NCBI GenBank assembly: GCA_019114515.1
Contig: DXFH01000025.1
Coordinates: 1-59,066, forward strand
Direction of reading: 5' to 3'
DNA: 59,066 nucleotides
Source of the DNA: Candidatus Limosilactobacillus merdigallinarum
GTDB taxonomy: Bacteria; Bacillota; Bacilli; Lactobacillales; Lactobacillaceae
In this document: piece after piece, positions 21,556 to 59,065 of the stretch
Numbering within the stretch: the stretch's first letter is position 1
Layout: every line of letters begins with the position of its first letter
Notes under the pieces: generated by a model
The model's input: only the letters and a program-made list of their open reading frames with translations
What the model was told of the DNA's origin: nothing
Database searches by the model: none
Program-made: the position numbers and the translations under genes

Positions 21556-24162
21556 TTAAAAATCGCACGGACTTATTCCATCCATGCCAATCATGGGATC
21601 AATCAAATTTTCACTGATGGCGTCAGCTGTTAGGTGACCAGGATTTTTTTGCGCATCATTTGTACTTGATGGTGGGGTGAGTGCCGCCGATGATAAATGA
21701 TGCAACTCTGGATCAACTGGTGAAAATGTTAGGGTATCTCCCGTGGTAAGGTTCGGGTCATCATGATTAGCTGTATCCGTTGCTAGATCATTTGCTTTTG
21801 TATGAGTAGCCTTTCCTGCAGACTTTGATCCCACTGCCATCGTTAATTCAATAGCGCGAGACAAAGAAGTTTGCCGGTATTCAGTTGGCGTTTGAGCACA
21901 ACGGACAAATGCATTCGGGTCACCAATCATCAGTAGCGCCTGGGAAGAACGCGTCACTGCCGTATACAGCAAATTACGGTGCATGATCGTCGGTGCATTC
22001 AGCAAGCGCGGAAAGTACTCTGGCACCATCGGTAAAATGACCACCTTTGACTGGCTACCTTGTGACTTATGAATGGTCATACAGTAAGCAAGCTGTAGTG
22101 CATTGATTTCATTAGGACGTGTGTATTCGACTTCTGTACCGTCGAAATTAACGACAATTTTGCGTTTGGCACGTGCCTTGCTCGATCCGTGGATCACATT
22201 CTGGCCTTCAATGACCTCTATAATCCCCAAATCGCCGTTAAAAACATCCCTATCCGGGTCATTTACTGTCTGCATGACCTTATCACCCACACGGAAGGTA
22301 GTATCACCATGGACCAGTGCTGGCTTTTCACCATCATCGGGATTAAGCTGGTTTTGCAAAAACTGGTTTAAGTAGCGTGTGCCTGCCAATCCAGCATGGA
22401 TGGGTGACAAGATCTGAATATCCATCAACGACAGCTTAAAACGATCCCGGTAGAGTTTCACTGCTTGACTGATAACCGGTCCCACCGTATCAATTTGTGC
22501 AGCATAAAACGCCCGGTGCGAATAAGTCTGCGGATCTTTGGGGGCAAAGGTATCCCGGTCAACTTCACCTTTATTAATTGCACGTGCGAGTGGAATAATT
22601 GACGAGTTTTTTGCCTGACGATAAATATGTTCCAGGCGAATTTGTGGCAAATTATTAACCTCCAACAGGTCATGAAAAACTTGTCCAGGACCGACTGATG
22701 GCAATTGATCACAGTCACCCACCAAAATAATGTGCATTTTTGTCGTCACAGCAGAAATCAAAGCAGCAAACAAAGCAGCACTGGTCATCGACATTTCATC
22801 AATAATGAGTAGATCACAGTCTAAACTGTCAAAATGCATATTTACTAACTGTTGATCATTTACATCAGCCGTTAAACCTAACAACCGGTGAATCGTACTA
22901 GCCTCGATCCCTGTGACACCATTAATTTGCTTGGCTGCCCGGCCAGTGGGCGCCACTAAAATCACATCATCCGCATTTTTTCCGGGGTGCATATTCAGGT
23001 AGGTATTAACAATGCCGTTAACAATGGTTGTTTTACCAGTGCCCGGTCCCCCAGTTAACAAGAGCAACGGTTTAGTAAGCGCCATTTTAATTGCCTGCTC
23101 TTGGATCCGGTCATATTGGGTACTAGCCTCGTTTTCTGCTTCATGCAAAGCATCCTTAAATTTTTTCTCATCTAGCTTGACTGGCTGCGCACTCATTAAT
23201 TCATTTAGTTTAGCTGCAGTCGACCATTCTGATTGATAAAGCGCCTGCGGATAGATTCCTGTGGATTGATCTTCTGCCGCTAAATGTTGCTTAATCAATT
23301 GATCTAGTTCGCTCCGGATATGAACGCTGTCGACCGCTCCCTTAAGCAAGTGGGCAACTGTTACTGATAAAAGCGACCATTTCACATAAGTACAGCCATC
23401 GCGATTGGTGATGGCTACCAGGCTGTAGAGGATTGACCCACGAATACGACGACTATCGGTTAGCTGTACATGGTAACGAACTTGTGCAAGCTGATCAATT
23501 TGTGCAAAACGAATTCCTGCCTGCTGTAAGTCCACTGCCAATTGATAAGGATTATCATGAATTATGCTTAACGTTTTGACCCCATACTGGTCAAAAATCA
23601 AATTCACTTGCCGCTCATTAAAGCCGTCTTCTTTCAATGACTGAATAATTTTACCAGTCGTGTTACCAAAATCGAGTTGGTCAAAGAAGGCAATTAGTTT
23701 TTCTCGATCATGCGCATCAAGCTGGTCAACATCAGCTAAACATTGCGGATTATCAACTACTTTGCGCATTGCATCATCACCCAAACTAGCAAAGATCAGT
23801 TGGGGACTTTTTTTCGGATGCTTTAATTTAATATTGTGGAGGCGTAGGTAACTGGTAAGTTGCGAACCGCTCTGGGGCAATACCACGTGACAGCCGGTAG
23901 ACGCAAACTGCAAGCCATAACGTTGGTCGTCAACCACCCGTCCTTCAAACTCATAACGGTCGCCTTCCACCACATCACCTAATTGACCTTTGACGGTAAT
24001 TTCATCCGTATCCCACTCAAACTTTGTATCTTCAACTTCAACAGCTAAAATCCGAAATAATCCGCGTTCAAAGATCACTACAGATACTTTACCAATCAAA
24101 GACGTCGGGCCCGTCGTCGTGACTGCCTCACTATGTTGCACTGGTTGATTAAAGTCTGACAT
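21556..24162 (-). CDS. recD2: SF1B DNA helicase RecD2
   Basis: 5'-3' DNA helicase of the stand-alone RecD2 (YrrC) type, involved in replication-fork and mismatch-repair processes. 868 residues: an OB-like N-terminal domain (about 20-95), a helix-hairpin region, Walker A GGPGTGKTT (371-379), Walker B LLIIDEMSM, the Q and SH3-like segments, and motif VI region QLAYCMTIHKSQGSQ...LLYTAVTRSSQ. After about residue 780 comes a low-complexity tail ending DPMIGMDGISPCDF. The usual first helix-hairpin phrase FPGIGxxTA is not recognisable at residues 105-130. The ATG follows AGGAGG; that site overlaps the stop of the preceding OB ORF, which is in the same frame. Confidence 0.93.
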   Translation of the reverse strand: MSDFNQPVQHSEAVTTTGPTSLIGKVSVVIFERGLFRILAVEVEDTKFEWDTDEITVKGQLGDVVEGDRYEFEGRVVDDQRYGLQFASTGCHVVLPQSGSQLTSYLRLHNIKLKHPKKSPQLIFASLGDDAMRKVVDNPQCLADVDQLDAHDREKLIAFFDQLDFGNTTGKIIQSLKEDGFNERQVNLIFDQYGVKTLSIIHDNPYQLAVDLQQAGIRFAQIDQLAQVRYHVQLTDSRRIRGSILYSLVAITNRDGCTYVKWSLLSVTVAHLLKGAVDSVHIRSELDQLIKQHLAAEDQSTGIYPQALYQSEWSTAAKLNELMSAQPVKLDEKKFKDALHEAENEASTQYDRIQEQAIKMALTKPLLLLTGGPGTGKTTIVNGIVNTYLNMHPGKNADDVILVAPTGRAAKQINGVTGIEASTIHRLLGLTADVNDQQLVNMHFDSLDCDLLIIDEMSMTSAALFAALISAVTTKMHIILVGDCDQLPSVGPGQVFHDLLEVNNLPQIRLEHIYRQAKNSSIIPLARAINKGEVDRDTFAPKDPQTYSHRAFYAAQIDTVGPVISQAVKLYRDRFKLSLMDIQILSPIHAGLAGTRYLNQFLQNQLNPDDGEKPALVHGDTTFRVGDKVMQTVNDPDRDVFNGDLGIIEVIEGQNVIHGSSKARAKRKIVVNFDGTEVEYTRPNEINALQLAYCMTIHKSQGSQSKVVILPMVPEYFPRLLNAPTIMHRNLLYTAVTRSSQALLMIGDPNAFVRCAQTPTEYRQTSLSRAIELTMAVGSKSAGKATHTKANDLATDTANHDDPNLTTGDTLTFSPVDPELHHLSSAALTPPSSTNDAQKNPGHLTADAISENLIDPMIGMDGISPCDF

Positions 24163-24171
24163 CTGTGCCTC

Positions 24172-24432
24172 CTAATCCAAATGCTGGTACTCTTTGGCCA
24201 CAAATTGGGTACCATGGCGATAATTATGTTGCAATTGCCCCTTAAATCGGTAAGCTTTTCCCACTTGCAAACGACCAAAGTGACCAACGACCGTTATTTC
24301 ACCCTGATCATAATTAAAGCTACTATTGGTAATCTGCACAACATTGATACTAAAAAAGCCATTGACGAAGGTCACCCTTTCGACGACTCCCTCCAATGAC
24401 TCTAATGACGAATCAAACTCGTGATTAGTCAT
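24172..24432 (-). CDS. Small stand-alone OB-domain ORF homologous to the RecD2 N-terminus
   Basis: 86 residues from the ATG at 24430-24432. Its body (LEGVVERVTFVNGFF, EITVVGHFG, YRFKGQLQ, RHGTQF) aligns position by position with residues about 20-90 of the RecD2 next to it (SLIGKVSVVIFERGLF, EITVKGQLG, YEFEGRVV, RYGLQF), so it is a duplicated YrrC-type N-terminal OB domain. It overlaps the TPR gene stop by eight bases and has no ribosome site of its own, suggesting translational coupling. It ends in TAG, followed by only nine bases in the same frame before the recD2 ATG. It may be a real coupled subunit, or the first OB of a tandem-OB RecD2 split by a stop. I cannot decide which. Confidence 0.65.
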   Translation of the reverse strand: MTNHEFDSSLESLEGVVERVTFVNGFFSINVVQITNSSFNYDQGEITVVGHFGRLQVGKAYRFKGQLQHNYRHGTQFVAKEYQHLD

Positions 24433-25096
24433 TTTTTTGCAATTTGCGCAGCGCATGTTCAATATCTGAGATACGCTTCTCACTCTTTTGATAGTAATCC
24501 AAATCAAGCTGCTTAGCAGAAGCAAGGTACTTCTTGTAAGGCTGACCTAAAGCCATAGCAACTAGTCCCCGATTAAACTGCGTGTCGGCTCTGCCTGGAT
24601 GATGCAACAAAATTTGATCATAGTATTGCCCTGCCTGCTTGAACTCGCCCAGTGCTAACAAAGAATCACCCAAGACCTGATTAATTTCCGGATCTTCTGA
24701 GCGTAACTCATAAGCAGTCAATCCATATGCGACCGCCTGCTTATACTGTTTCTTCTTCATGTAGCTCTGAGCCAGCATCAGATAAGAATCAGCCTTTAGC
24801 CGATCGTCATCAATCTGGTTGTAGTATTTAATGGCTTCATCCACCTTGCCTACCGAGTAGTAAACATTGCCTAAGCCATACTTTAAAAGGTTAATGGCTT
24901 TTTGGTCACCCTTCTTCTCGAAGATGCCTAATGCCTTTTGGAAGAGTTCTTCCGCTTGTACATAGTCGTGCAGCCGCGTTAATAAAGAACCTAAATCATA
25001 GTAATTATGAAACTTGTCAGGGTCGGCATCAATGGCCTTCACCAAACGATGGACTAAATGTTCACTTTGCTTTTTCTTTGCTTCTTCGTTATCCAT
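24425..25096 (-). CDS. Tetratricopeptide-repeat protein
   Basis: 223 residues, soluble, built of about five TPR units: NYYDLGSLLTRLHDYVQAEELFQKAL, LLKYGLGNVYYSVGKVDEAIKYYNQI, DSYLMLAQSYMKKKQYKQAVAYGLTAYEL, INQVLGDSLLALGEFKQAGQYYDQIL and TQFNRGLVAMALGQPYKKYL. This is a protein-interaction scaffold with no catalytic site. The ATG follows GAGAGGGG. It sits between the histidine phosphatase and recD2, the same neighbourhood as the TPR gene (YrrB type) before recD2 in Bacillus, so a conserved link to RecD2 is likely. The partner is unknown. Confidence 0.88.
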   Translation of the reverse strand: MDNEEAKKKQSEHLVHRLVKAIDADPDKFHNYYDLGSLLTRLHDYVQAEELFQKALGIFEKKGDQKAINLLKYGLGNVYYSVGKVDEAIKYYNQIDDDRLKADSYLMLAQSYMKKKQYKQAVAYGLTAYELRSEDPEINQVLGDSLLALGEFKQAGQYYDQILLHHPGRADTQFNRGLVAMALGQPYKKYLASAKQLDLDYYQKSEKRISDIEHALRKLQKND

Positions 25097-25111: not shown

Positions 25112-25768
25112 TCAAATCGTGTCTGTTGGGTCAACATGGTCTTTATGAAGGTAACTGGTGTCATTCCACTTTACCAGCTTGAACTGCTGACCATCATTAG
25201 TCGCCAAAATTGTCGTGGAAGTGTTGCTTAAGCCACCACGGTCTTTTAAGTGTGCAAGTGGCGCACCTAACAAACCATTAATAGAGGCGTTCAAGGCAGC
25301 CCCATGAGAGACAACCACCACATTACCTGTTGGGTATTGCTCAGCATAATCGCGGACAGCGTTACCCATCCGCTTAATAACGGACTGAAAACTCTCACTA
25401 TCGACAACTTTAGGATCATAGCGGTCAGGATGATGACGAAAAGCATCTAAGACTGCCGGCCACCGTTTAGCAACCTCGGCAAATTTCATACCTTCCATTT
25501 TACCTAAGTTAAACTCAGCCAAACGATCATCAATGGTCAGCGGAATATCCTCATTTAAAGCAGCCTTCAATTTTTCGGCAGTCGTCTTTGCACGGGGCAA
25601 AGGTGAGGAAAAAATATGGTCAATGTTGACTCCCTTTAGCGACTTAGCTAACAGTTTAATCTCCTGGTAGCTTTGTGGCAAAAGCGGGGAATCCCCATTA
25701 GTTCCTTGATAACGAGACTGTAAATTCCACTGTGTTTTTCCGTGTCGAATAAAATAAAACTTCGTCAT
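25112..25768 (-). CDS. Histidine phosphatase superfamily protein (phosphoglycerate-mutase-like)
   Basis: 218 residues. The catalytic RHG motif is at the N-terminus (FYFIRHGKTQWNLQSRYQG, His8), with the distal acid and second His regions LAEFNLGKMEGM and VVVSHGAALNASI. The family includes broad-specificity phosphatases as well as cofactor-dependent mutases; the short length and loops favour a phosphatase, but the substrate cannot be read from sequence. The ATG follows GGTGG. First gene of the unit phosphatase-TPR-OB-recD2. Confidence 0.9.
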   Translation of the reverse strand: MTKFYFIRHGKTQWNLQSRYQGTNGDSPLLPQSYQEIKLLAKSLKGVNIDHIFSSPLPRAKTTAEKLKAALNEDIPLTIDDRLAEFNLGKMEGMKFAEVAKRWPAVLDAFRHHPDRYDPKVVDSESFQSVIKRMGNAVRDYAEQYPTGNVVVVSHGAALNASINGLLGAPLAHLKDRGGLSNTSTTILATNDGQQFKLVKWNDTSYLHKDHVDPTDTI

Positions 25769-58283: not shown

Positions 58284-58357
<74 letters not shown>

Positions 58358-58366
58358 ATAATGAAG

Positions 58367-58439
58367 TGACCCGTGCGGGATTCGAACCCACGTTACCAGC
58401 GTGAAAGGCTGGTGTCTTAACCAACTTGACCAACGGGTC
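58367..58439 (-). tRNA. tRNA-Glu (TTC)
   Basis: Acceptor GACCCGT / ACGGGTC, anticodon stem CCAGC / GCTGG with loop CTTTCAC (anticodon TTC), T loop TTCGAAT. A substrate of the MnmA enzyme encoded at 25925-27058. No CCA encoded. Confidence 0.97.
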
Positions 58440-58489
58440 ATCAAAAGACGACTGATTGTTTGAAATATACCAATCAAACAACAATAAAT

Positions 58490-58518
58490 ACTATAACAAA
58501 GAAAGAAAGATTATGCAA
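58490..58518 (-). promoter_or_regulatory. Promoter of the Glu-fMet-Asp tRNA unit
   Basis: Minus strand: -35 TTGCAT (58513-58518), 17-base spacer, -10 TATAGT (58490-58495), about 50 bases before tRNA-Glu. The rest of the 58519-58670 gap shows no gene. Confidence 0.75.
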
Positions 58519-58671
58519 GACATAATCAATAAAAATTTGATCATCAGACTTATCTTTTTAGAATCCGGCCTTTTACCTAACATTGATACTGTCTATCACG
58601 TTTTAAGAAAAGGATTAGCTATTTGCTGAGCAAAAGCTTCATAAACATGAGCCGTAAAATAGTAGTTTAAT

Positions 58672-58712
58672 GACTAAAAAAGAAAACCACAGTCCAATCA
58701 GAACTGCAGTTA
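58672..58712 (-). terminator. Terminator of the upstream tRNA unit (Phe-Gly-Ile-Ser)
   Basis: Minus strand stem AACTGCAGT / ACTGTGGTT (two G-U pairs), 9-base loop, then TTTTC and six T residues. Confidence 0.78.
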
Positions 58713-58720
58713 ACATATAG

Positions 58721-58809
58721 CGGAGACTGAGGGATTCGAACCCTCGCGCCGTTTTACCGACCTACACCCTTAGCAGGGGCGCCTCTTCAGCCAACTTGAG
58801 TAAGTCTCC
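58721..58809 (-). tRNA. tRNA-Ser (GCT)
   Basis: 89 bases, with the long variable arm expected of serine tRNAs. Acceptor GGAGACT / AGTCTCC, anticodon loop CTGCTAA (anticodon GCT), T loop TTCGAAT, discriminator G. Confidence 0.97.
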
Positions 58810-58819
58810 ATATTAAAGA

Positions 58820-58894
<75 letters not shown>

Positions 58895-58910
58895 ATTATC
58901 CACACGGGAA

Positions 58911-58981
58911 AGCGGGTAACGAGAATCGAACTCGCGACAACAGCTTGGAAGGCTGTGGTTTTACCACTAAACTATACCCGC
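58911..58981 (-). tRNA. tRNA-Gly (TCC)
   Basis: 71 bases. Acceptor GCGGGTA / TACCCGC, anticodon loop CTTCCAA (anticodon TCC), T loop TTCGATT, discriminator T. Confidence 0.96.
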
Positions 58982-58992
58982 ATAGATTTAAA

Positions 58993-59065
58993 TGGCGCGG
59001 GACGGAATCGAACCGCCGACACACGGAGCTTCAATCCGTTGCTCTACCAACTGAGCTACCGAGCC
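58993..59065 (-). tRNA. tRNA-Phe (GAA) with an acceptor-stem mismatch
   Basis: Anticodon stem ACGGA / TCCGT with loop TTGAAGC (anticodon GAA), T arm GGCGG-TTCGATT-CCGTC. The acceptor strands are GGCTCGG and CCGCGCC, so position 4-69 is a T-C mismatch while the other six pairs are good. The cluster continues beyond the window edge. Confidence 0.92.

Follow-up and report, generated by a model that had tools for sequence, protein, structure and literature searches.

RecD2 switches strands at forks, and one study proposes its N-terminal OB-like region as the mediator of switching and also proposes modulation by other proteins (PMC12143592). In B. subtilis, YrrC has been placed among the members of the SSB interactome (PMC3000357). 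PriB, a stimulator of PriA, goes back to a duplication of SSB (PMC8509808). In this phylum the ribosomes are believed to lag behind RNA polymerase (PMC13323073).

The gene described here, OB1, shares its fold and sequence family with the OB_YrrC domain of RecD2 (YrrC), scoring above the curated cut-off, and derives from it by duplication, but it is free-standing, basic, and has no helicase attached. Its proposed role in trans on a helicase makes it analogous to PriB in mode, not in kinship: PriB comes from SSB and acts on PriA, whereas OB1 comes from RecD2 itself and has RecD2 as a putative partner. Among the titles listed in a literature search with most subscription papers outside its scope, none concerned a stand-alone RecD2 OB domain or a recD2 terminator.

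An OB_YrrC gene between the TPR gene and recD2

The window, by which we mean the whole 59,066-nt stretch of DNA analyzed, carries a presumed operon on its minus strand in the order mutase-like gene, TPR gene, OB1, and recD2. The first gene (25112..25768) is one that we take, from the appearance of its sequence and without a family search, to be histidine-phosphatase or phosphoglycerate-mutase-like, and the TPR protein gene that follows upstream of OB1 (24425..25096) is presumably in a yrrB-like position. OB1 (24172..24432; 86 aa) begins with the ATG at 24432 and ends with the TAG at 24174-24172. Its start overlaps the TPR stop by 8 nt, ATGACTAA (24425..24432), in which the ATG opens OB1 and the TAA closes the TPR frame. 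The list of open reading frames gives a longer, 117-aa OB1 frame from a TTG inside the TPR gene; we preferred the ATG at the TPR stop, since an ATG that overlaps this stop is present in each of the eight genomes that carry OB1. Downstream, the recD2 gene (21556..24162, minus strand) encodes an 868-aa SF1B helicase (TIGR01448, 634.8 bits) that contains its own Pfam OB_YrrC domain, OB2 (23875..24102). The OB1 TAG lies inside the recD2 Shine-Dalgarno sequence, TTAGGAGG (24168..24175), and the three codons GAG GCA CAG (24163..24171) run from the OB1 stop to the recD2 ATG, such that TAG GAG GCA CAG ATG forms one frame. The first-pass annotation of this DNA had described the RecD2-N-terminus-like frame at 24172-24432, its eight-base overlap with the TPR gene, the stop within the recD2 ribosome site, and the in-frame three-codon spacing, and our analysis bears out all of these.

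Residues 11-84 of OB1 match Pfam OB_YrrC (PF23139) with 59.8 bits, and residues 21-96 of RecD2 match it with 53.6 bits, against a curated cut-off of 27. Residues 11-79 of OB1 align with the RecD2 N-terminus of the window's genome at 38% identity (E 5e-10), and this homology is far above chance. The protein conforms to a five-stranded OB barrel, and Pfam assigned it OB_YrrC alone, with no homology to SSB or PriB. Against the RecD2 helicase model TIGR01448 it scored 29.1 bits (cut-off 500), matching positions 1-66 of 713, which leaves it outside that family. A phmmer search against the PDB gave a best E of 0.076, and no Foldseek match reached E 0.001. The top Foldseek row was a complement C3 fragment complex, not a DNA-binding protein.

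Occurrence, duplication, and loss of OB1

An OB_YrrC match was found in 48/50 genomes of the genus. Eight of the 50 have a second one, which lies upstream of recD2 in a short frame (87-124 aa): the window's genome (G000), G415, G130, G215, G314, G420, G400, and G402. A search of the genus with OB1 as the query recovered the same eight, and OB1 is open in its own short frame in every one of them. Within a family sample of 397 genomes, two PF23139 matches were detected outside the genus in G208 and G271 only; we rejected both as stand-alone OBs, the second match being a long RecD2-like ORF (764 and 771 aa). A sample of 395 genomes from the order, which included five genomes of the genus but none of the seven other OB1 carriers, contained two matches in the window's genome only, and OB1 as an order-wide feature was rejected on that count. 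In the phylum sample, 86 of 149 genomes had a PF23139 match and seven of these had two; in six of the seven the frames were at least 712 aa long, and the window's genome alone had a short one. All other PF23139 matches in the phylum sample, among those listed, lay in frames of at least 437 aa. Short OB frames elsewhere, among the matches listed, were those of G626, G638, G630, and G610 in the order sample (194-319 aa), with one further frame in G007 (128 aa); all five were rejected as stand-alone OBs, recD2 being broken by frameshifts and the OB frame running into the next RecD2 part. A plasmid search returned, among the matches listed (8 of 10), only RecD-like helicases, one of them in a record without annotation. 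A related-locus search of genome contigs returned two distant loci. Within the samples searched, a stand-alone OB of the OB1 type thus appears solely in one sub-clade of the genus.

To place these genomes, a tree of the TPR protein and RecD2 body was built from 48 genus rows and nine outgroup rows (quick method, LG). All eight OB1 genomes fall within one sub-clade of 17. Two lineages in it, seven genomes in all, have no OB1: G302, G334, G386, and G399, which are sister to G000 and G415 (SH-aLRT 96), and G154, G344, and G398, which are also nested in the sub-clade. At its base stand G247 and G408, a placement that is weakly supported (69). The OB-domain tree (65 rows), weakly resolved because it has 78 columns, places the eight OB1s in one clade (96/86), and the OB1s together with the 15 RecD2 OBs of the sub-clade form a clade apart from the canonical RecD2 OBs (99/99). 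Homology, tree, and restricted occurrence together show OB1 to be a real small gene that arose when the 5′ end of recD2 was duplicated in tandem, once, in the sub-clade ancestor. The simplest account is this single duplication followed by at least two losses, and since OB1 was lost in two lineages it is dispensable. The first-pass annotation had named the lack of homologous sequence in relatives, or a broken frame in sister strains, as evidence against a gene; the nearest sister clade (four genomes) goes half way toward this, having deleted OB1 but retained the hairpin of its 5′ end. The overlap between OB1 start and TPR stop measures 4-20 nt in the eight genomes. In G247 and G408 it is canonical recD2 whose start shares the 8-nt ATGACTAA with the TPR stop, just as OB1 does in the window, and OB1 thus retains the ancestral kind of start. 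As the sequences show, the upstream duplicate kept this type of start and became a free OB protein, and the downstream duplicate remained fused to the helicase and carries its own Shine-Dalgarno sequence.

The arrangement of a single in-frame stop and three codons before recD2 is found in 3/8 genomes (G000, G415, and G400), and it is the one observation that speaks for suppression of the TAG to produce a two-OB RecD2, the tandem-OB helicase that the first-pass annotation had offered as an alternative. We regard this as highly improbable: the OB1 and recD2 frames differ in G402, G130, G215, and G314, OB1 extending beyond the recD2 ATG in the last three, and about 390 extra bases separate OB1 from recD2 in G420. 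The stop also sits in the recD2 ribosome site, a position that would be pointless if it were read through, and a fused ORF in relatives, the form that would have favored a split helicase, did not appear: among the matches listed from the genus, family, order, and phylum samples, no frame held two whole OB matches. The in-frame stop is better read as a trace of the duplication, a stop that at the same time belongs to the recD2 ribosome site. The probability that a sequencing or assembly artefact split a longer RecD2 is negligible. The window's genome is admittedly a draft (32 contigs, 92% complete), and frameshifted recD2 does occur in draft genomes elsewhere, but the relatives contradict an artefact, the same architecture being present in eight genomes including the one-contig G314, and RecD2 carries its own complete OB besides OB1.

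The hairpin at the TPR-recD2 junction

A terminator-like RNA hairpin is predicted within the OB1 codons (24355..24403, minus strand), closed by a T6 tract at 24352..24357 (TTT TTT, the FF of NGFFSI), and the element has the stable stem-loop and following U tract of an intrinsic terminator. Over 60 nt, the fold (24403-24352) has a minimum free energy of -19.6 kcal/mol (z -3.15), with 0/200 shuffles as good, and a second predicted stem-loop in the window spans the OB1 start. The hairpin could be scored in 47 of the 48 genus recD2 loci, those with the TPR gene in the locus (G411 was left out), and in each of the 47 a hairpin with a T-rich tail, folding at -12 kcal/mol or lower, is found about 150 nt or less past the TPR stop. 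It lies inside OB1 in eight genomes and in the short gap left by OB1 deletion in four, and in the remaining 35 it spans the 5′ end of recD2 or sits within it. In the rest of the family it was detected in 8/30 loci of a set that favored high OB scores (the eight belong to a single genus) and in 4/26 loci of a mostly one-per-genus sample (32 loci, six of them without the TPR gene); it is uncommon in the family outside the genus. The element is like operon-internal or premature intrinsic terminators and attenuators in having a stable hairpin and T-rich tract between two presumed-operon genes, but unlike them it shares bases with coding sequence in 43/47 genomes (with OB1 or with the 5′ end of recD2), is kept genus-wide, and had no match to the Rfam covariance models over 23900-24700 at E up to 5.

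Synonymous recoding was as strong as the native hairpin in 0-11 of 300 recodings in the eight OB1 genomes and in at most 5/100 for 32 of the 35 other genus genomes, with more than 5/100 for three. For canonical recD2, 15.5% of synonymous recodings reach -12 kcal/mol, and 32/381 control genes bear one of this strength close to their start, so that strength by itself does not decide the matter. A comparison of nine homologous hairpins from related genomes that are not independent, five carrying OB1 and four lacking it, had 94.2% of cells paired versus 31-63% when slid, and six double-changed cells versus 2.6 expected (5/500 shuffles as high). Two of five covariation measures were unremarkable, namely pairs changed on both sides (192/500 shuffles) and the covariation score (70/500). 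The U tract is weaker, being interrupted, in G400, G402, and G420. Because the related genomes are not independent and control genes also have such hairpins, we consider selection on the hairpin likely and its action as a terminator plausible. Where OB1 was deleted (four genomes), the hairpin is followed after some 25-40 nt by the recD2 start. This is too short to hold a promoter, and recD2 in these genomes is therefore probably transcribed by read-through. A fixed partial terminator is favored over ribosome-controlled attenuation because in this phylum RNA polymerase is believed to move ahead of the ribosomes (PMC13323073).

These features also bear on a reading in which the OB1 ORF matters in cis: it carries the hairpin and a coupled start, translation of its 5′ end would set the amount of transcription or translation that arrives at recD2, and the peptide is secondary. 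The presence of the hairpin in every genus genome scored, its persistence after OB1 deletion, and the second stem-loop over the OB1 start in the window would all suit such a role. We nonetheless think it unlikely: most of the genus has the hairpin without OB1, which is therefore not needed for it, there is amino-acid-level constraint along OB1, and the presumed lead of RNA polymerase over the ribosomes weakens ribosome-controlled attenuation (PMC13323073).

Selection on OB1 and its proposed role

In the closest OB1 pair all six differences are synonymous, and OB1 is under purifying selection. It also evolves much faster than its neighbors, with an identity between G000 and G415 of 64.5% for OB1 versus 98.7% for OB2, and identity to the window's OB1 falls to 37% among the eight copies. 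Mean net charge is +3.4 for OB1 versus -4.9 for the OBs within RecD2 in the same clade; at a net charge of 0, the window's own copy is less basic than the other seven. Both the charge and the selection are consistent with a protein that binds nucleic acid, but neither points to RecD2 as its partner. The first-pass annotation had suggested that a conserved separate ORF with low dN/dS would support a gene, and such an ORF is present in 8/50 genus genomes under purifying selection. Its idea of a separate mini-gene survives in the RecD2-type OB, the start overlapping the upstream stop, the presence in relatives, and the selection; the tandem-OB helicase does not. Fast divergence, together with the losses in the G302/G334/G386/G399 and G154/G344/G398 lineages, could also mark OB1 as a passenger, a duplicate briefly or never useful that is still open but decaying. 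This is possible but doubtful, given a frame open in 8/8 genomes across deep divergence, the purifying selection, and the consistent shift to basic charge.

The best account, to which we give about an even chance, is that OB1 is a duplication-born gene whose product acts in trans on RecD2 as a nucleic-acid-binding accessory, and that the hairpin is a partial terminator limiting recD2. OB1 translation would be coupled to TPR termination, as suggested by the overlap in 8/8 genomes and by the lack of a clear Shine-Dalgarno sequence in G000 and G415, and the product would be made together with RecD2. Having kept the OB fold and passed from acidic to basic, OB1 may bind ssDNA or RNA on its own. At forks it could then compete with or add to the RecD2 N-terminal OB, acting on the second DNA contact of RecD2 and altering strand switching. 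The junction hairpin would pass only part of the transcripts into recD2 by putative termination, so that recD2 would be transcribed less than TPR. A more speculative combination, which we consider improbable, is that the hairpin is a true recD2 control element and OB1 its diffusible ligand, feeding back on the helicase mRNA and perhaps also competing at forks. If this were true, the helicase would have copied its own nucleic-acid-binding domain, and the OB1 gene would overlap the RNA site that OB1 reads.

The N-terminal domain of RecD2 is described as uncharacterized and as the proposed driver of strand switching (PMC12143592). The genomes analyzed here are a natural set of species in which this RecD2 domain also occurs as a free, mostly basic protein, together with near relatives that have lost the free copy, and they make the action of the domain in trans testable. 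As a trans-acting accessory, OB1 would be another PriB-like case of a helicase accessory born by OB-domain copying. Across the genus, the hairpin points to an operon-internal terminator that keeps recD2 low, a regulatory feature that is itself testable.

Interrupted, partial, and additional recD2 genes

Five draft genomes from other genera carry a RecD2 helicase gene, recD2, whose reading frame is broken by at least one frameshift: G007 (locus L147), G626, G638, G630, and G610 (L175, L176, L177, and L178, respectively). A TPR gene was looked for between the mutase-like gene and recD2 of G007 and was not found there. The recD2 of genome G398 is in three pieces (L100, L170, and L173), the middle one containing three in-frame TGA codons, and this breakage represents either decay or a sequencing problem; G398 belongs to a lineage that has also lost OB1, the stand-alone OB-domain ORF. 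Within the window's genus, G005, which is 99% complete, gave no recD2 match, and G422 has only a C-terminal part of recD2, within a 355-aa frame; one species may have lost the gene.

Second, shorter RecD2-like ORFs of 755 to 771 aa, each with its own OB domain, were detected apart from the standard recD2 locus in G402 (L112), G411 (L113), and G271 and G208 (L117 and L118), and are possibly mobile.

Spacing in G420 and other RNAs in the window

Approximately 390 extra bases, absent in relatives, separate the OB1 stop from the recD2 start in G420 (L103) and look like an insertion. The window contains the Rfam 23S-methyl RNA motif (RF01065; 49667-49768, minus strand), and six tRNAs lie at its end (58284-59065).

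Hairpins over start codons

A second stem-loop (AAUGAC/GUCAUU) is predicted over the OB1 start codon (24404-24433, minus strand). GUCAUU is repeated, which would allow alternative pairing of the OB1 start region with the terminator arm and might act as a switch. In G415, this repeated element is almost identical. In g4, another genus of the same family, a similar hairpin and T tract enclose the recD2 start codon itself (L006, L008, L020-L024, and L028) and could hide the ribosome site.
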